Positions 42,412 to 50,521 of a DNA stretch of 64,000 nucleotides are shown here, piece by piece. Every line of letters begins with the position of its first letter. The stretch's first letter is position 1. Position numbers and translations under genes: made by a program. The notes under the pieces are model-generated. The model made no database searches. It saw nothing but the letters and a program-made list of their open reading frames with translations, and was not told the origin of the DNA. The stretch is from Breznakia pachnodae (GTDB taxonomy: Bacteria > Bacillota_I > Bacilli_A > Erysipelotrichales > Erysipelotrichaceae): contig NZ_JAUSUR010000005.1 of NCBI RefSeq assembly GCF_030814225.1, positions 62,001 through 126,000 of the forward strand, read 5' to 3'.

Positions 42412-43656
42412 TCAAATTTTACTATCGTTTAATCGTTTCGATGCTAGTATAAATTTTTTAATTATTTTTTCAGGATCACCTTTTGGTATTTTACTACCAA
42501 TGGTTTCAAACGATAAACCATATTCTTCCTTTGGCATAAAGTATTCATAATATCCATTAGTGTAACCACAAATAATACCTAGAGATATTGTAGAATCTTT
42601 CATCTCAATACCAAACTTTGATCCTAGCTCACCTGGAAATACAAAGAGTTGAATATTTCCTAAATTAATAACAACACCCTTTATATCCAAATGATAATTA
42701 TGAACATCTAATTCTTTCTTTAAATTATGTATTTTCTTTTCATAAAATTCTATTTTATCTTCATTATTTTCTTCAGCAAGTTGCTCTTGCATCTTATTAA
42801 TTTCAATTGTCAATTCTTCATGTACTGTTTCCATATTATGATGGATTACATGAAATAGTGTTTGATAACGAATTGAACCTAATATAATTTCATTGTTTGT
42901 ATCAATTTCACTAATGTGTTTGGCAAGTGCAGTAGAAACACGTTCTAGTTCGTGAAAGTCACTTCCCTTACGTTCATTTCGATTACTGCTGTCAGCTGCT
43001 GCTCCAACAATCATTGCTGGATAGAATCCAAATGAATCATATAGTTTCTTACTTACTTCACCAGCTAGATCACTTGTAAGCATTGTGTTATCCGCACTAA
43101 GCACAGTTGAATGTACTGCCCAGTTAACAAACCCTGCAAATGGTTTTCCAGCTTCATCATGAAACTTTACAACTATCACTTCATTATCAGCTAACTGTCC
43201 AGGGTGATTACGATTGCCATAATAGCCCCTTATTACTTCTTTTCCATAAGCTGCAGTTGCTGTTTGCAAACTATCTAAACAGTCCTCATAACTGCTTAAA
43301 ATCGTTTGTATAAAGAAATCATAATATTCTTGATCAAACTTATTTGTATACCAGCTGCGATGATAAGAAACTACAGATGAATGATCATGGGTAGCACACA
43401 ACAACACAAGATCTCTTTCAATACCATATTTATTATGTAGTAATGTTTTTACATCATCAGCCATTGATTCTTCAAACTCAATAACATCTGCACTAAAAAT
43501 AAATACTTTTTTTCCATCTTGTTCAAACAATAATGAATTACAATAAATATCATCATGAACACCTGTTGCTGGCTCATAACGATTATCACTACGATAGCCA
43601 ATTAGATAGAACTCCTTTTCAGGCGTTAAACAATATCTTGAACTTCCTACTTTCAT
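42412..43656 (-). CDS. Ceramidase-like hydrolase (copy B)
   Basis: 414 residues related to the N-terminal domain of neutral/alkaline ceramidases: KVGSSRYCLTP..., FIFSADVIEF, LLCATHDHSSVVSYH (the family's THTHS motif region, with both histidines kept), and FVNWAVHSTVLSADNTMLTSDLAG. An inserted coiled-coil-like stretch lies at about 275-310. The family is a zinc amidase, but bacterial members act on varied substrates. Paralogous to the upstream gene; GAGGTGA precedes the ATG. Confidence 0.78.
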   Translation of the reverse strand: MKVGSSRYCLTPEKEFYLIGYRSDNRYEPATGVHDDIYCNSLLFEQDGKKVFIFSADVIEFEESMADDVKTLLHNKYGIERDLVLLCATHDHSSVVSYHRSWYTNKFDQEYYDFFIQTILSSYEDCLDSLQTATAAYGKEVIRGYYGNRNHPGQLADNEVIVVKFHDEAGKPFAGFVNWAVHSTVLSADNTMLTSDLAGEVSKKLYDSFGFYPAMIVGAAADSSNRNERKGSDFHELERVSTALAKHISEIDTNNEIILGSIRYQTLFHVIHHNMETVHEELTIEINKMQEQLAEENNEDKIEFYEKKIHNLKKELDVHNYHLDIKGVVINLGNIQLFVFPGELGSKFGIEMKDSTISLGIICGYTNGYYEYFMPKEEYGLSFETIGSKIPKGDPEKIIKKFILASKRLNDSKI

Positions 43657-43671
43657 TTCTATTCACCTCAC

Positions 43672-44892
43672 TTATTTCTTCTTTATTCGTTTAAGTTTAT
43701 CAATAATACAATTACATAGCATTTCAGCAGATCCCTTTGCAAACATTGAATTCATTGCTGCATAGGTATTACGCTCATATGCTGACTTCTCTGCCATATA
43801 TTTTGCACCGCCATTTACCATTGTTACAACTAGGGTATTAGTAAATGGTGAGTGTTTTCTGATTTCATCGCCAATAATACTGGTAAGTTCAGGCTTTACA
43901 CCAATCAGCGCAATATCTCCTAAAATGATAACATCACTCCTTAACTTGTGATTTCCACCTTCCATATATAGATAGTATTTGGATGGTTTAATATCACTAA
44001 GTTTTTCAGGCATTCTTTGGCCTTTCAAATCACATTCAACAAAATCAATTACAAAATCAACTGCATTTTCTAATTTTACAATCTTATTTACACTTTGAAC
44101 AACCTCATTACCAAACTGTTGAGCTAAGCGATTCATCTGAAGAAACCCATCAGAACCCAACTTGTCATCGATTGCTGTAAACACTGGTGACTGATCACCA
44201 GCAGCACCAATTAAGAACATAGCTATCATCTCATCATCATATTGCTCTTCAATAAATGAAGATGTAGCACCACTAAGATCTGCACTTACACTGCATGTGC
44301 TATCTTTCATTACAGATGACTGTATATCATAATTATATAGTATTGCCAGTACTTTTCCATCAAGTGTCTTAAAACATACACTTTTAAGTTGGTTACTTGA
44401 ATAACCATTTGGATTTTTTCCCAACCAATAACCATTATCTGTGGATATATCACGATTAACATTGAAATGAGCTTCATTCGTGTTATAACCTACCTGTACT
44501 TCTTTTGCTGTTTTTATCGCTTGTAATACTGCTTTATATGTTGCATCTTCAATTGCATTACATAACAGTTCATTCTTTGTTTTTAATTCTTCATTTTTTA
44601 GTGCACTTTTTGAACGTACATGAGGTGCATTGAATGTATGCGTTGTTGTAATCCAGATATTATCTATAGATACATCACAGTTTTTGCTTATTAACTCCTT
44701 TAATTTTACGATTTCATAATCTTTAAGTGAAGTTAATTCTAGTGAGACAATCACAACTGACTCATTACTTTGAATATAAAGAACACGCACATGGAGTTCA
44801 TCATGAATATCTGTAAATGTCTCTATTGGAAATAAACTATCTGGAAGAAGAATTACTTCTTTTCCAATTCCTACTTTTAACTGTTGGTTCAT
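43672..44892 (-). CDS. Ceramidase-like hydrolase (copy A)
   Basis: 406 residues, same architecture as copy B: KVGIGKEVILLPD, VIVSLELTSLKD, IWITTTHTFNAPHVRSKS (the THTHS motif reads THTFN, losing the second His), SVSADLSGATSSFIEEQY and FLIGAAGDQSPVF. The loss of that His suggests altered or absent metal chemistry. It lies 26 bases after the amidohydrolase gene and 15 before copy B. GGAGG precedes the ATG. Confidence 0.75.
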   Translation of the reverse strand: MNQQLKVGIGKEVILLPDSLFPIETFTDIHDELHVRVLYIQSNESVVIVSLELTSLKDYEIVKLKELISKNCDVSIDNIWITTTHTFNAPHVRSKSALKNEELKTKNELLCNAIEDATYKAVLQAIKTAKEVQVGYNTNEAHFNVNRDISTDNGYWLGKNPNGYSSNQLKSVCFKTLDGKVLAILYNYDIQSSVMKDSTCSVSADLSGATSSFIEEQYDDEMIAMFLIGAAGDQSPVFTAIDDKLGSDGFLQMNRLAQQFGNEVVQSVNKIVKLENAVDFVIDFVECDLKGQRMPEKLSDIKPSKYYLYMEGGNHKLRSDVIILGDIALIGVKPELTSIIGDEIRKHSPFTNTLVVTMVNGGAKYMAEKSAYERNTYAAMNSMFAKGSAEMLCNCIIDKLKRIKKK

Positions 44893-44918
44893 GATACCTC
44901 CTTCGCATTCTTAATCCT

Positions 44919-45953
44919 CTACTTAATATGATACAATCTTTGCGCATTTTTATATAGAATTAAGTTCTTTTCTTCTTCACTGATATCCAATTCTCTTACA
45001 AACTGTGCACCATTCATCATCCATTCTTTTCTGACTGGATAAGAAGAACCATAGATAATATGATCAGCACCCAATACAGATACTGCACATTCCAGTTGTT
45101 CTTTTCCCCATGGTTGTGCATGAGACATTTCAAAGTAAACATTATTTTTAAATTGGTACTCAAGAGAATCATTACTATTTTCGAATCGCTTCACTTCATC
45201 ATTACTTGTTGTTTTCTTTGGCAAAAGCATATTTGCGATTGCAAAGAATCCACCACCAAGCATTGAATGTACAAATTTAAGATTAGGGTATTTCTCAAAA
45301 AAACCACTAAATAACTCTCTACCAATTGCGGTTGTCTGATCCACACATCTTCCATAAGAACGTCTAAGATTGTTGTATTCATAAATAGAATCATATTGAA
45401 CTGGTACTGGAGTATGATGAATATAAACTGTTGTTTCTTCTTCATTTAGTTTCTTAAAGAAATCTGCAAATATTTCATCATCCAGATACTTCTCTCCATA
45501 ATGAGCACACAACTGAATTCCATTCATTCCCAGGTCTTCTCTGCATCTTTTTAATTCCTTGAAACATTGTTTACTGGCAAACGGTGGAAGTACTGCAAGA
45601 GGAATCAATCTACCTTCACTCTTTTGTGCATATTCATACATTCCATCATTGAACTTCTTGCATGTATCAAGTGACATCCATTCATGACATCCAGGTATTT
45701 TCAATACTGCCTTATCAATACCGGCTTGATCCATGTCCGCTAATTGTTGTTCAATACGGTACTCACCCTGTACATAATCCAAATTATGATAACCCGTTGG
45801 TTTCTCAATACTTATTAAATTATGTTCACTCTGGTGATGTAAGTGTGCACTTGTTCCATAAGCTTTTGGTACTTCAGACATAAATTTTTCGCTCTCTTCT
45901 TCGCTTTCAAAAATGTCTTCTAAAAACCAATATATATTAGCATCTATAACCAA
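44919..45953 (-). CDS. Amidohydrolase-fold protein with altered metal ligands
   Basis: 344 residues of the amidohydrolase-2 (PF04909-type) TIM barrel: LADMDQAGIDKAVLKIPG, LAVLPPFASKQCFKELKRC, TTVYIHHTPVPV, LKFVHSMLGGGFF, ADHIIYGSSYPVR. The N-terminal HxH (usually DxHxH) reads DANIYW, and the late GSD reads GSS, so the usual metal site is largely missing. A TTG start with GGAGG 8 bases upstream fits best. First gene of the PTS/hydrolase operon. Confidence 0.82.
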   Translation of the reverse strand: MVIDANIYWFLEDIFESEEESEKFMSEVPKAYGTSAHLHHQSEHNLISIEKPTGYHNLDYVQGEYRIEQQLADMDQAGIDKAVLKIPGCHEWMSLDTCKKFNDGMYEYAQKSEGRLIPLAVLPPFASKQCFKELKRCREDLGMNGIQLCAHYGEKYLDDEIFADFFKKLNEEETTVYIHHTPVPVQYDSIYEYNNLRRSYGRCVDQTTAIGRELFSGFFEKYPNLKFVHSMLGGGFFAIANMLLPKKTTSNDEVKRFENSNDSLEYQFKNNVYFEMSHAQPWGKEQLECAVSVLGADHIIYGSSYPVRKEWMMNGAQFVRELDISEEEKNLILYKNAQRLYHIK

Positions 45954-46058
45954 TTATTTTACCTCCTTTTCTTTACACTCTCATTCTACGATAGAACCTA
46001 AAACATCAGCAATTCCATTTCTAAGCATATTTATTCCAAAACAGAATAAATAAAAAAA

Positions 46059-46082
46059 CTGCTGACTAATATAAGCCAGCAG
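46059..46082 (-). terminator. Terminator of the radical SAM/GroEL operon
   Basis: CTGCTG/CAGCAG stem with inner pairs, followed on the minus strand by seven U (46052-46058). It overlaps the last codons of the GroEL gene. Confidence 0.75.
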
Positions 46083-47709
46083 CGCTATCGTTAATAAGTT
46101 GTTGATTCAAATCCTTCTTAATAATACTATCCATTGATGTATCAACTAACACACTTTCAGTTGTTAAAATAAGCGAAGCAATACTTGAAGCAGATTGAAG
46201 GGCAACCTTCTCCACCGTACTAGGATCAATAATACCAGTTTCAAACATATCCACAAGTTCCAATGTATGAATATTATATCCAGTAACCGCATCTGTTTCC
46301 TCCAATCGCTTAATGTATGGATGAATATTCTTAACTCCAGCATTGATTAGAAGTTGATTAATTGGTTCTTTTAAACTATCAATAATAATCTGCAATCCAA
46401 TACACTCATCAATTGACGCCTCTTTTAAGTAACTTTGAAGATACTTTGCTGTATTCAAGTACGCCAAACCACCACCAGGCAAAATACCTTCTTTAATCGC
46501 AACTCTTGTAGCACAAAGAGCATCTTCAATTTTCATCTTCTTTTCTTTCATCTCTAATTCACTTAATGCACCAACCTTTAAAATAGCTGCTGACTCAGAT
46601 AAATTAGCCAATCGTTGCTCCAAACGATCCCTTTCAAACTCACTTGATGCATGATCCATAAGATGCGCAATCTGTTCTCTCTTTTGAGTCAGTTGCTCTT
46701 CATTGGCTTTTCCTTCAACAATCATTGAAGACTCTTTTTCCACTACGATTTGCCCTGCTCTTCCCAAATCTTCTATGTTTACACCCTCAAGAGTTAATCC
46801 CAACTCTTTATCTATAACCTTTCCACCAGTAACAATCGCTATGTCTTCTAGAATCTCCTTTCTTCTCTCATGCGTTGAAGGAGCTTTTATCGCAACTACA
46901 TTTAATATATTCTGTACCTTATTTAGTATCAGTGTAGACAATACTTCCTCACTAATTGCATCCGATATCAAGACCAAACTACCATCTACTTCAATTAACT
47001 TTTGAAGGATGTCTGCAATTTGCTCAATATTATCTATTTTTTCACCAGTAATTAAGAAATAAGGATTCTTAAATTCCGTTAGTGATTTCCCCTGATTGTT
47101 AACCATATAAGGTGAAATATAACCTTCATCAATTGTATATCCCTGTACAATTTCAAGTTCCGTTATTGTTGATTTTGATTCCTCAATTGTAATCAGTGCC
47201 TTATCACCAATCTGTTCAATCGCATTTGCAAGCAATTCTCCAATTTCTGCTTCACCAGATGAAATAGCTGCAATATCACGCACTTGTATTGGAATTACGA
47301 TTTCCTGCGTTGATAATGTAAGATGTTTGATTGCCAGATCAACTGCTTTTTTCATACTGCTTTTGATCATCATTGGGTTACATCCTTCATCAATATAGCG
47401 TACACCTTCATTGATCATTTTCTGAGCAAGCAGAATTGCTGTAGTAGTTCCATCACCTGCCAAATCATTTGTCTTAAGTGCTACCTCCTTCACTAGTTCA
47501 ATACCAACATTCTCAAATGGTTCTTCTAATATGAACTCCCTAGCGATGGTTGCACCATCATTGGTAATATATGGACCTGTATATTCATTGGCAATTACCA
47601 CATTTCTCCCCCTTGGCCCAAGTGTGGCTTTGATTGTATCTGCTAACTGATCAATCCCATCCATTAATGACTTTCTAGCCAGATCATTCGATATAATTTT
47701 CTTTCTCAT
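46066..47709 (-). CDS. groEL: Divergent GroEL chaperonin (paralogue, no GroES)
   Basis: About 547 residues, full length for Hsp60: TIKATLGPRGRNVVI, ITNDGATIAREF, TNDLAGDGTTTAILLAQKM, VATRVAIKEGILPGGGLAYL. It departs from housekeeping GroEL in many positions and ends INDSAAGLY instead of a GGM-rich tail. There is no groES gene next to it. It follows the TIGR03915-type DNA protein by 23 bases, in an operon driven by a LexA-like repressor region. I start at MRKKIIS (47709), with AAGGAGAG 6 bases upstream; a TTG two codons earlier is unlikely. Confidence 0.9.
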   Translation of the reverse strand: MRKKIISNDLARKSLMDGIDQLADTIKATLGPRGRNVVIANEYTGPYITNDGATIAREFILEEPFENVGIELVKEVALKTNDLAGDGTTTAILLAQKMINEGVRYIDEGCNPMMIKSSMKKAVDLAIKHLTLSTQEIVIPIQVRDIAAISSGEAEIGELLANAIEQIGDKALITIEESKSTITELEIVQGYTIDEGYISPYMVNNQGKSLTEFKNPYFLITGEKIDNIEQIADILQKLIEVDGSLVLISDAISEEVLSTLILNKVQNILNVVAIKAPSTHERRKEILEDIAIVTGGKVIDKELGLTLEGVNIEDLGRAGQIVVEKESSMIVEGKANEEQLTQKREQIAHLMDHASSEFERDRLEQRLANLSESAAILKVGALSELEMKEKKMKIEDALCATRVAIKEGILPGGGLAYLNTAKYLQSYLKEASIDECIGLQIIIDSLKEPINQLLINAGVKNIHPYIKRLEETDAVTGYNIHTLELVDMFETGIIDPSTVEKVALQSASSIASLILTTESVLVDTSMDSIIKKDLNQQLINDSAAGLY

Positions 47710-47732
47710 AAACAACTCTCCTTGTATGTGTC

Positions 47733-48497
47733 CTATTCCTGTGTTTCAGGAAGATATTTCCAATATTTCTTTGGCATAAAACTTCGTTGACATCTTTTAT
47801 TCTCACGTTCTTTAATTGCAATATTCTTAAAGTAGTCCTTCCATAATTTTAGATACTCATCTTCTTTTTCATTTTCAACCATTGATAAATCCATAGTAGT
47901 TGAATCTACAACAATAAATTCTTTACGATTGTATAAAGCTATTCGCATTCTTCCTTTATCATGAATCATCCAAATTTCCTGGCTTAAACGACTACTAAAG
48001 TGATCAGCAAGAAACTCCAAGATATCATTATCAGACTCATACTCTGCATACAGAAAGTTATTTGACATCTGAGCAAAACGAATAAATCCAGAGAATCGAT
48101 GTGCTTCATATTTTACATTCTGACATAATCGTTGTACTTCGATTACACAATCAATACTCTTCATAAAATTAACACGTTTCCCATGCTTAAAGGCATAGAT
48201 TATATAATGCAAAATTGGTAATTCCTTTTTCTTATTACCTGACAGAAATGCAGTATATACATAATATAAAGTAAAATCTGAAATTCGATCTCTTATCATG
48301 TTCACAATATATTGTGAATCATCCAAGTTTGTTGGAACTACTACAGGGATATCCAGCAAATTCTGAATATACTCTTTTTCTTCCACTACATCACTGGGTA
48401 TCTTTTTCTCTTTAAAGCATTTGTAAGCAATGGTTAATAAACCCTCAAGTGTTCCATCATATAAATAAACTTCTTCTACAATTGACCAGTGATGCAT
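47733..48497 (-). CDS. TIGR03915-type DNA metabolism protein (radical SAM partner)
   Basis: 254 residues: EEVYLYDGTLEGLLTIAYKCF near the N-terminus, a helical middle, HRFSGFIRFAQMSNNFLYAEYESDNDILEFLADHF, then a C-terminal YLKLWKDYFKNIAIKERENKRCQRSFMPKKYWKYLPE. This protein family is nearly always paired with a putative DNA-repair radical SAM protein, as here. Its function is not established. The first 22 bases overlap the radical SAM gene. Confidence 0.88.
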   Translation of the reverse strand: MHHWSIVEEVYLYDGTLEGLLTIAYKCFKEKKIPSDVVEEKEYIQNLLDIPVVVPTNLDDSQYIVNMIRDRISDFTLYYVYTAFLSGNKKKELPILHYIIYAFKHGKRVNFMKSIDCVIEVQRLCQNVKYEAHRFSGFIRFAQMSNNFLYAEYESDNDILEFLADHFSSRLSQEIWMIHDKGRMRIALYNRKEFIVVDSTTMDLSMVENEKEDEYLKLWKDYFKNIAIKERENKRCQRSFMPKKYWKYLPETQE

Positions 48498-49744
48498 TGT
48501 ACTTCATCCTTCATCGTTGGTTCAAATAAGGATAATTGAACCGATTTTGATGTTTCAATCAACTGTTTTCGCTCATCATGAATAAGTGCACTTGAGATTA
48601 GATTAGTATTAAAGAAAGAAGAACTTGAGAAGTACTTGCCATCGCATGTAATAAAGTATTTTGCTCTTTTTAATACCACTCTCATCTTCTTTAAACTTTC
48701 AAATGTAAGTTTATTGTACTTTCTTGCAGCAATAATTTTCTTGGCAGATAACACTCCAACCCCTGGAATCTTAAGTAACGTATAATAATCTGCTTTATTG
48801 ATTTCTACAGGAAATTGATCCAGATTACGTAAAGCCCAATCCGCCTTTGGATCAAGCAAGGTATTGAAATTCTGATGATCCTCATCTAATAAATCTTCAA
48901 CCTTAAATCCATAAAATCGAAGTAACCAATCTGCCTGATAAAGACGATTCTCACGTAGCAGTGGAGGCTTTTCAATGGCTGGTAGCAAATCATCATTATT
49001 TAGTGGTACATATGCAGAATAGTAGACGCGTTTCATATTCAGTTTGTCATACATTCCTTCCGCAAGTGCCAGAATCTTATGATCTGTATCAGGTGTAGCA
49101 CCAATAATTAACTGCGTTGTCTGCCCTGCTCTTACAAATTTGCAATCTTCTTTCACCGTTTTCTTAATGTACTTCATTGGTTCCAGAATTCCCTCTTTTT
49201 CTTTATTTGGGGCCAGAAGTTTTAAACTTTGACTGGAAGGTAATTCAATATTGATACTCATACGATCGACTAGCAGTCCCAATTTATTAATTAAATCCTG
49301 ACTTGCTCCAGGAATCGTCTTCGCATGTATATAACCATTAAACTTATGCTCTTTCCTTAGAATACGAACTGCCTCACATAAACATTCCATTGTATAATCA
49401 GGATTTTTAATTACCCCTGAACTAAGAAACAATCCTTCTATATAGTTGCGCTTATAGAAGTTAATCGTTAAGTCAGCAATTTCTCTTGGTGTGAAACATG
49501 CTCGTTCAATATTGTTGGATGCTCGATTCATGCAATACTTACAATCATAAATACATGAATTCGTCATCAGAATCTTAAGCAATGAGATACAACGACCATC
49601 AGATGAGAAACTATGACAGATGCCACATAACTTCGCATTTCCTATTCCATCTTTGGTATTCTTACGATCACTACCACTAGAACTACATGAGACATCATAC
49701 TTTGCACTATCCGCCAATATTCTCAATTTGTCAGCAACTTCCAT
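48476..49744 (-). CDS. Putative DNA modification/repair radical SAM protein
   Basis: 422 residues. The radical SAM cluster motif is CIYDCKYCMNR (about 67-77), followed by a TIM-barrel core and a C-terminal helix-hairpin-helix (LLKIPGVGVLSAKKIIAARK, about 325-344), which suggests DNA binding. It matches the TIGR03916 type. It is the first gene of the operon, divergent from the LexA/HdiR-like repressor gene. GGAGG lies 7 bases before the ATG. Confidence 0.92.
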   Translation of the reverse strand: MEVADKLRILADSAKYDVSCSSSGSDRKNTKDGIGNAKLCGICHSFSSDGRCISLLKILMTNSCIYDCKYCMNRASNNIERACFTPREIADLTINFYKRNYIEGLFLSSGVIKNPDYTMECLCEAVRILRKEHKFNGYIHAKTIPGASQDLINKLGLLVDRMSINIELPSSQSLKLLAPNKEKEGILEPMKYIKKTVKEDCKFVRAGQTTQLIIGATPDTDHKILALAEGMYDKLNMKRVYYSAYVPLNNDDLLPAIEKPPLLRENRLYQADWLLRFYGFKVEDLLDEDHQNFNTLLDPKADWALRNLDQFPVEINKADYYTLLKIPGVGVLSAKKIIAARKYNKLTFESLKKMRVVLKRAKYFITCDGKYFSSSSFFNTNLISSALIHDERKQLIETSKSVQLSLFEPTMKDEVQCITGQL

Positions 49745-49766: not shown

Positions 49767-49871
49767 TTACGTTTACGTACTTTTTACAATTTAATTATAC
49801 TCGTTAATTACGTAATTACAATACAAAAACGTAATTTTTTTATTTCGATTAACTTCAAACTTGCATTTACG
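49767..49871. promoter_or_regulatory. Repeated TTACGT/ACGTAA operator region
   Basis: Between divergent genes. TTACGT occurs twice in tandem (49767-49778), a 14-bp palindrome TAATTACGTAATTA spans 49805-49818, ACGTAA recurs at 49829-49834, and TTTACG lies at 49866-49871. The array overlaps the promoter regions of both the radical SAM operon and the self-cleaving repressor gene. Confidence 0.7.
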
Positions 49872-49906: not shown

Positions 49907-50521
49907 ATGCAACTAAATGAGTATATACGAATCAAAAGAAAAGAGCTAAAGCTCACAATCGAAGATGTTGCTAAATTTGTAGGGGTCAGCATGCCTACAG
50001 TTACTCGTTGGGAGTCCGGTGAAATAAAGAACATTAAAAATGATAAAATATCAAAACTGGCTACTGTATTAGAAATCGATCCACTTGTATTAATCGGGTG
50101 GGATGATGAAGCAGAGGTACAGGAATCAAAGAAAATGAAACCAATTCTTGGGTTTGTAAAAGCCGGATATGATTTAATTGCCAATGAACAACTGTTAGGT
50201 TATGAAGAAGTAACTACTGCTGAAATGAATAAAGGTGATTTCTTTCTTCAGGTCAAGGGTGATTCGATGATTGGATCTCATATTTTTGATGGAAGTAAGG
50301 TCTATGTAAAATCGCAACCGGATGTTTCTTCTGGAGATATTGCAGTTGTATTAATTGATGGTGAAGAGGCTACCATCAAGCGTGTAATCAAAGAGAAAAA
50401 CCTCCTTATTTTGGAAGCAACAAATCCTGATTATGAGAACAGATACTTTACTGCACAGGAAGTAAAAGAACTGCCTGTAACCATTATTGGTCGAGTAGTT
50501 TCTTGTAAGAATGAGTTTTAA
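49907..50521 (+). CDS. LexA/HdiR-like self-cleaving repressor
   Basis: 204 residues: an XRE-type helix-turn-helix (LTIEDVAKFVGVSMPTVTRWESGEI, about 16-40) fused to an S24 peptidase domain with cleavage site VKAG (Ala-Gly at about 84-85), catalytic Ser in KGDSMIGS (about 119) and Lys in ATIKRV. It resembles HdiR/ImmR rather than winged-helix LexA. DNA damage via RecA filament would trigger self-cleavage and release repression. GAGGTGA precedes the ATG. Confidence 0.9.
   Translation: MQLNEYIRIKRKELKLTIEDVAKFVGVSMPTVTRWESGEIKNIKNDKISKLATVLEIDPLVLIGWDDEAEVQESKKMKPILGFVKAGYDLIANEQLLGYEEVTTAEMNKGDFFLQVKGDSMIGSHIFDGSKVYVKSQPDVSSGDIAVVLIDGEEATIKRVIKEKNLLILEATNPDYENRYFTAQEVKELPVTIIGRVVSCKNEF

Follow-up and report, generated by a model that had tools for sequence, protein, structure and literature searches.

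The textbook chaperonin is a general machine that depends on its GroES lid. The genes considered here encode a radical SAM protein of the family TIGR03916, which we take to be COG4277, a partner protein of the family TIGR03915 (DUF4130) and a GroEL. PMC3765255 links DUF4130 to UDG and to SplB-like radical SAM proteins, and in PMC8565304 a COG1573-COG4277 operon belongs to the SOS network of Bacteroidetes. Both families and the SOS control are common to the cassette described below; unlike in this cassette, a chaperonin is not a component of the pair in these published accounts. The words "chaperon" and "groel" are absent from PMC3765255, and no chaperonin link was seen in the accessible parts of the literature on DUF4130 or COG4277, preprints and many subscription papers being outside the scope. 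A literature search of the same scope revealed no mention of TIGR03916/TIGR03915, and no published description of a chaperonin in an operon of this pair was found.

Stand-alone groEL genes are known: 834 of 5,658 groEL genes have no neighbouring groES, although the same survey states that a groEL which is the only one of its genome is invariably accompanied by an adjacent groES (PMC5406781). GroEL2 of Myxococcus and others are extra GroELs without an adjacent groES, as in the locus studied here; the Myxococcus copy still needs groES, in contrast to the likely GroES-independent copies described below. A precedent comes from Escherichia coli, whose UmuC and DNA polymerase IV are both targets of GroE (PMC12046405 and PMC10359629, citing Donnelly and Walker 1992, Layton and Foster 2005 and Petit 1994): a chaperonin is needed there for a DNA-damage response protein, as is proposed here. 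The E. coli chaperonin is the general heat-shock GroE working in trans, whereas the present one is probably dedicated, apparently co-transcribed and SOS-controlled. Finally, HdiR of Lactococcus and Streptococcus is a self-cleaving S24 repressor which takes the place of LexA and regulates its own gene as well as those of error-prone polymerases (PMC9578287, PMC8565304). The repressor in our locus differs in that its putative divergent target is the operon with the chaperonin.

The window, a 64-kb stretch of the genome of Breznakia pachnodae, contains one apparent transcription unit on the minus strand (49744-46066) with the order radical SAM, TIGR03915, GroEL. The radical SAM gene (48476-49744) encodes a putative DNA modification/repair protein, COG4277-like, with a C-terminal helix-hairpin-helix. 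It matched TIGR03916 with 645.6 bits (cut-off 343.5) and PF04055 above the cut-off; the HHH_3 match was slightly below its own cut-off. The adjacent gene (47733-48497, minus strand), which shares 22 nt (48476-48497) with the radical SAM gene, encodes a putative DNA repair partner matching TIGR03915 (235.5 bits, cut-off 112.25) and PF13566 (163 bits), so that both members of the pair passed the curated cut-offs. The AlphaFold model of this partner had a pLDDT of 93.8. No useful sequence match to solved structures was found for either protein, and a DHH-phosphoesterase-like fold for the partner was set aside, since only weak, partial matches were obtained (TM ≤0.40). The third gene (46066-47709, minus strand) encodes a divergent GroEL of 547 aa, hereafter GroEL2. 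Its open reading frame spans 46066-47715, and the start codon is either ATG at 47709 or TTG at 47715. The TIGR03915 stop and the ATG are separated by exactly 23 bases (47710-47732), which contain the Shine-Dalgarno sequence AAGGAGAG.

GroEL2 matched PF00118 with E=8.8e-65 and 219.7 bits (Pfam cut-off 34.3) and passed two GroEL subfamily models, NF000592 and NF009487. With the TIGR02348 equivalog it scored 561.6 bits, a near miss of the cut-off of 582.1. By these sequence models the protein is divergent yet clearly a GroEL. It keeps the ATPase residues D52, D87, D398 and D495 and the motif GDGTTT. Its tail, ending in KKDLNQQLINDSAAGLY, has no GGM repeat; the tail is a weak discriminator, GroEL1 of the same genome (AAMPSMY) being GGM-poor as well. 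No groES was found in the neighbourhood, and no CIRCE element (≤3 mismatches) in the window. The locus thus differs from the canonical groESL operon in having no groES upstream, no GGM tail and no CIRCE. The preliminary description had reported a divergent GroEL without GroES and the GGM tail lying 23 bases behind the repair pair, under a LexA/HdiR-type repressor region; the gap, the TIGR02348 score, the neighbourhood and the tail confirm the former, and the repressor region proved to be real.

The repressor gene (49907-50521, plus strand) is divergent from the operon and encodes a protein with HTH_3 and Peptidase_S24 domains. The HTH is of CI type, a residue check showed the cleavage site Ala86-Gly87 and the dyad Ser120/Lys158 in place, and the protein is putatively self-cleaving and of HdiR type. 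Upstream of the radical SAM gene, TTGTAA-16-TATAAT (49794-49821, minus strand; 10/12) is the top-scoring sigma-70-type match of the region. At the other end, a terminator-like element (46058-46083, minus strand) with a 10-pair stem followed by TTTTTTATTT overlaps the GroEL stop codon. The number of promoter-like and terminator-like matches was not above that in shuffled sequences, and the argument lies in their placement, not in their count. A cluster of ACGTAA/TTACGT operator-like repeats (49767-49834) lies over and beside the promoter-like site; the window contains 24 of these hexamers in all, and five of them fall in the 162-nt intergenic region around that site. From this sequence arrangement we infer that the site may act as the promoter of the operon, under control of the divergent repressor. 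No promoter-like site was found in the 23-nt gap before GroEL, which leaves no room for a separate promoter.

The rest of the genome provides a second PF00118 protein, the housekeeping groEL behind groES (G000:C1:407267-408763), with two CIRCE elements upstream of groES. This supports the view, at the level of sequence, that GroEL2 is not the housekeeping chaperonin. According to the preliminary description, a role of the chaperonin in the DNA-damage operon would be contradicted if GroEL2 were the only GroEL of the genome and constitutively expressed, or had its own promoter, and it proposed looking for housekeeping groES-groEL elsewhere. That operon is present on contig C1, and the short gap and the lack of CIRCE in the window speak against separate transcription. 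GroEL2 shares 42% identity with the housekeeping protein and falls outside the housekeeping clade (support 100/97); a recent duplication of the housekeeping groEL was therefore ruled out. Orthologues of GroEL2 were detected neither in 58 near relatives nor in 392 genomes of the phylum, where only housekeeping-level matches occurred. No match to the canonical LexA model TIGR00498 above the cut-off was present in the genome. It has only two S24 proteins, that of the window and one at C1:195601, whose gene faces an ORF for a Y-family (DinB/UmuC-type) polymerase and lies near an SRAP-like ORF, both named by reading the translations. By analogy, this pattern fits an HdiR-type stand-in for LexA, as in Streptococcaceae.

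The three-gene cassette recurs in an uncultured family of Bacilli (f11), where over 40 loci carry it, and this recurrence in independent loci places the arrangement beyond chance. Among 80 TIGR03916 loci retrieved with the radical SAM protein of the window as the query, 19 had the order radical SAM-TIGR03915-GroEL, with GroEL directly after TIGR03915. All of them formed one clade of uncultured genomes labelled as Bacilli, Clostridia, Erysipelotrichaceae, Tenericutes or Mycoplasmatota. An adjacent chaperonin was not seen in the remaining 61 loci, two of which end inside TIGR03915. TIGR03915 and GroEL share bases at 37 of 40 f11 junctions (median spacing -4 nt). Of 21 cassette genomes searched, 20 encode no PF00118 protein other than the operon GroEL, and GroES (PF00166) is absent from the same 20, mostly draft metagenome assemblies; only G440 departs from this, with a further groES-groEL. 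Identical searches of control genomes found PF00118 in 14 of 14 and PF00166 in 11 of 14. The cassette genomes thus differ from those of the published survey (PMC5406781): their sole GroEL is joined to a repair operon, and GroES is undetectable. TIGR03916 relatives with <60% identity are also carried by plasmids.

In the radical SAM tree, the protein of the window grouped with seven loci labelled Clostridia that lack GroEL, and this group and f11 stood together, apart from the remaining 51 loci. A single clade of GroEL2 and the other cassette GroELs was compatible with the data (AU p 0.41), and GroEL2 did not group with them firmly, so that the arrangement in the window could be of separate origin from the family cassettes.

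Among 395 genomes of the class, TIGR03916 occurred only in the window genome and in 15 genomes of f11. All of these carriers have GroEL, and 203 genomes of the set have none. Within 154 f11 genomes, 23 contained both radical SAM and GroEL, one only radical SAM, three only GroEL, and 127 neither (Fisher p 4e-23). The discordant cases were a TIGR03915-GroEL locus cut at a contig end (G595), a remote homologue below the cut-off (G629), a canonical-like GroEL (G587) and a different, short chaperonin (G624). On an rpoB tree of 109 f11 genomes the cassette was patchy, the supported branches requiring no fewer than 8-9 changes. GroEL went with radical SAM in eight of eight independent contrasts (p 0.008); this was a quick tree of one marker gene and draft genomes, with 85 of the negatives included and the G590 row left out. 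Across 19 genomes, GroEL distances correlated with those of radical SAM (rho 0.84) and TIGR03915 (0.80) but not with those of rpoB (0.17), and the partial correlation was 0.84 (permutation p 0.001). The three genes therefore move and are lost together, and the cassette is transferred as a unit, independently of the host marker.

LexA boxes (CRAAC-N4-GTTYG, ≤1 mismatch) were present in 33 of 45 f11 cassette promoters, against 0.58 expected from shuffled sequences. In most cases the box lies 25-45 nt ahead of the start codon, at the expected place of the -35 element. The same box was found upstream of 21 of 24 readable lexA genes, and lexA itself in most f11 cassette genomes. It also occurred at 28 of 51 radical SAM loci without GroEL. 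SOS control of the TIGR03916/TIGR03915 pair is thus widespread, in keeping with the Bacteroidetes account, and the chaperonin joined it. The three-gene module with its SOS wiring in f11 supports the earlier proposal that the chaperonin is wired into a DNA-damage operon together with repair genes: composition and order are conserved, the genes are co-inherited and co-transferred, and LexA boxes precede them in relatives.

With the three genes kept as a unit in dozens of bacteria that are only distantly related, a joint function of the chaperonin and the repair proteins is very probable. Our preferred explanation, which we regard as likely, is an SOS-induced chaperonin dedicated to the repair pair as its client and probably GroES-independent in f11. 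In undamaged cells, the cassette would be kept off by LexA in f11 and by the divergent self-cleaving HdiR-type repressor in the organism of the window. DNA damage would lead to cleavage of the repressor and release of a single polycistronic mRNA, on which gene overlaps or short gaps would allow the chaperonin to be made in step with both repair proteins. It would then fold or assemble one or both partners. Possible clients are each of the two proteins alone and the complex that they form; the radical SAM protein, which carries an iron-sulfur cluster, and the complex appear more plausible than TIGR03915 alone. In cassette genomes without GroES the chaperonin would act without the lid, and in the organism of the window it might borrow the housekeeping GroES. 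Judging by the apical residues given below, GroES independence of the f11 cassette GroEL is likely. Points against the preferred explanation are the many repair pairs with no chaperonin next to them, the housekeeping groESL of the organism of the window and the possibly separate origin of its operon. The more specific proposal of a mobile SOS cassette, in which a GroES-independent group I chaperonin is switched on by DNA damage and serves one repair enzyme pair only, has in our opinion slightly better than even chances.

The main rival, in our judgement an unlikely one, is that the ring is a working part of the repair machine (a scaffold, an ATPase or a DNA-loading platform) and not a folding chaperone. 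Such a role would also account for the obligate co-inheritance. It agrees with the fast evolution of GroEL (median divergence 0.58 vs. 0.30 for the radical SAM protein) and with the pattern of its conservation. The apical domain is the least conserved domain of the f11 cassette GroELs, and their positions 199, 234, 264 and 265, which are GroES/substrate contacts, are mostly changed. At the same time, none of the 44 cassette GroELs compared deviates at D52, D87, D398 or D495, and GDGTTT is kept apart from single substitutions at G86 and T91. However, the predicted structure of one f11 protein (pLDDT 90) is a complete three-domain GroEL, and the PDB entries most similar to it are Cpn60/Cpn10 complexes (TM ≤0.80). 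Moreover, the window GroEL keeps most canonical apical residues (Y199, Y203, L237, L259 and N265, with L234A and E238Q changed). The repair pair is also encoded without an adjacent GroEL in many bacteria, which indicates that a dedicated chaperonin is not always needed.

A general stress chaperonin captured by SOS control, refolding damaged proteins broadly with no special client, seems less probable still. The operon GroEL is indeed the sole chaperonin of cassette genomes, and groEL of E. coli is UV-induced (Krueger and Walker 1984, cited in PMC12046405). This explanation fits poorly because the cassette GroEL is never retained without the repair pair, while a generally useful chaperonin should sometimes persist alone. 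In addition, about 127 of 154 f11 genomes show no chaperonin, and CIRCE, a usual GroE control element, is missing from the window. Neutral hitch-hiking of three functionally independent genes on a mobile segment would agree with cassette distances that do not follow the host tree, and is nevertheless very improbable. The order and overlapping junctions persist in 40 deeply divergent loci with conserved ATP residues, and the lack of any conserved fourth gene downstream in the f11 loci compared gives no sign of a larger carrier element. A pattern scan yielded no viral-contig relatives of the radical SAM protein or GroEL2, and a phage origin was set aside. As to an assembly or binning artefact, most carriers are metagenome-assembled and the contamination listed for the window genome is 5.7%; with dozens of independent assemblies, contigs of up to 209 kb and the unit of the window itself intact, we consider it hardly credible.

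In the cassette family, genomes that otherwise manage with no chaperonin have, time and again in evolution, retained or gained one solely in company with the two repair proteins. Such cassettes offer a natural minimal system for asking what makes a protein chaperonin-dependent, whether GroEL can act without GroES and what the uncharacterised TIGR03916/TIGR03915 pair does. For this pair, its chaperonin is a first biochemical handle.

The closest relatives of the window radical SAM protein were found at MAG loci labelled Clostridia (L044-L050), where the radical SAM-TIGR03915 pair is present without an adjoining GroEL and is preceded upstream by LexA-box-like sites. The predicted structure of the TIGR03915 protein (window 47733-48497) was confident (pLDDT 93.8). 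No close fold match for this model was found in PDB; DHH phosphoesterases and RecJ-like proteins resembled it weakly and only in part (TM at most 0.40). The downstream side of the operon (window 42412-45953) is occupied by a separate metabolic cluster, namely a tandem pair of ceramidase-like proteins (PF04734; cut-off passed only by the 42412-43656 copy) and an amidohydrolase (PF04909).

Among the 21 cassette genomes tested, only G440 contained an additional groES-groEL (G440:C137; L151, L178). Its GroEL shared only 38% identity with the housekeeping GroEL of the window's genome, and may represent contamination or a separate acquisition. In the uncultured Bacilli family that carries most cassettes, a short (about 457 aa), very divergent chaperonin-like protein (L211, G624:C9:26355-27488; 24% identity to GroEL2 of the window) was not part of any radical SAM cassette, and a remote TIGR03916-like protein (L212, G629:C6; 37% identity, under the cut-off) was encoded with no chaperonin adjoining.

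Besides the repressor in the window, the genome of B. pachnodae encodes another HdiR-type S24 repressor (C1:195601-196032, L370), located opposite a putative Y-family (DinB/UmuC-type) polymerase ORF and close to a putative SRAP-like ORF, both named from their translations. No canonical LexA was found in this genome at the TIGR00498 cut-off; therefore, the SOS response of this organism may be run by HdiR-type repressors.
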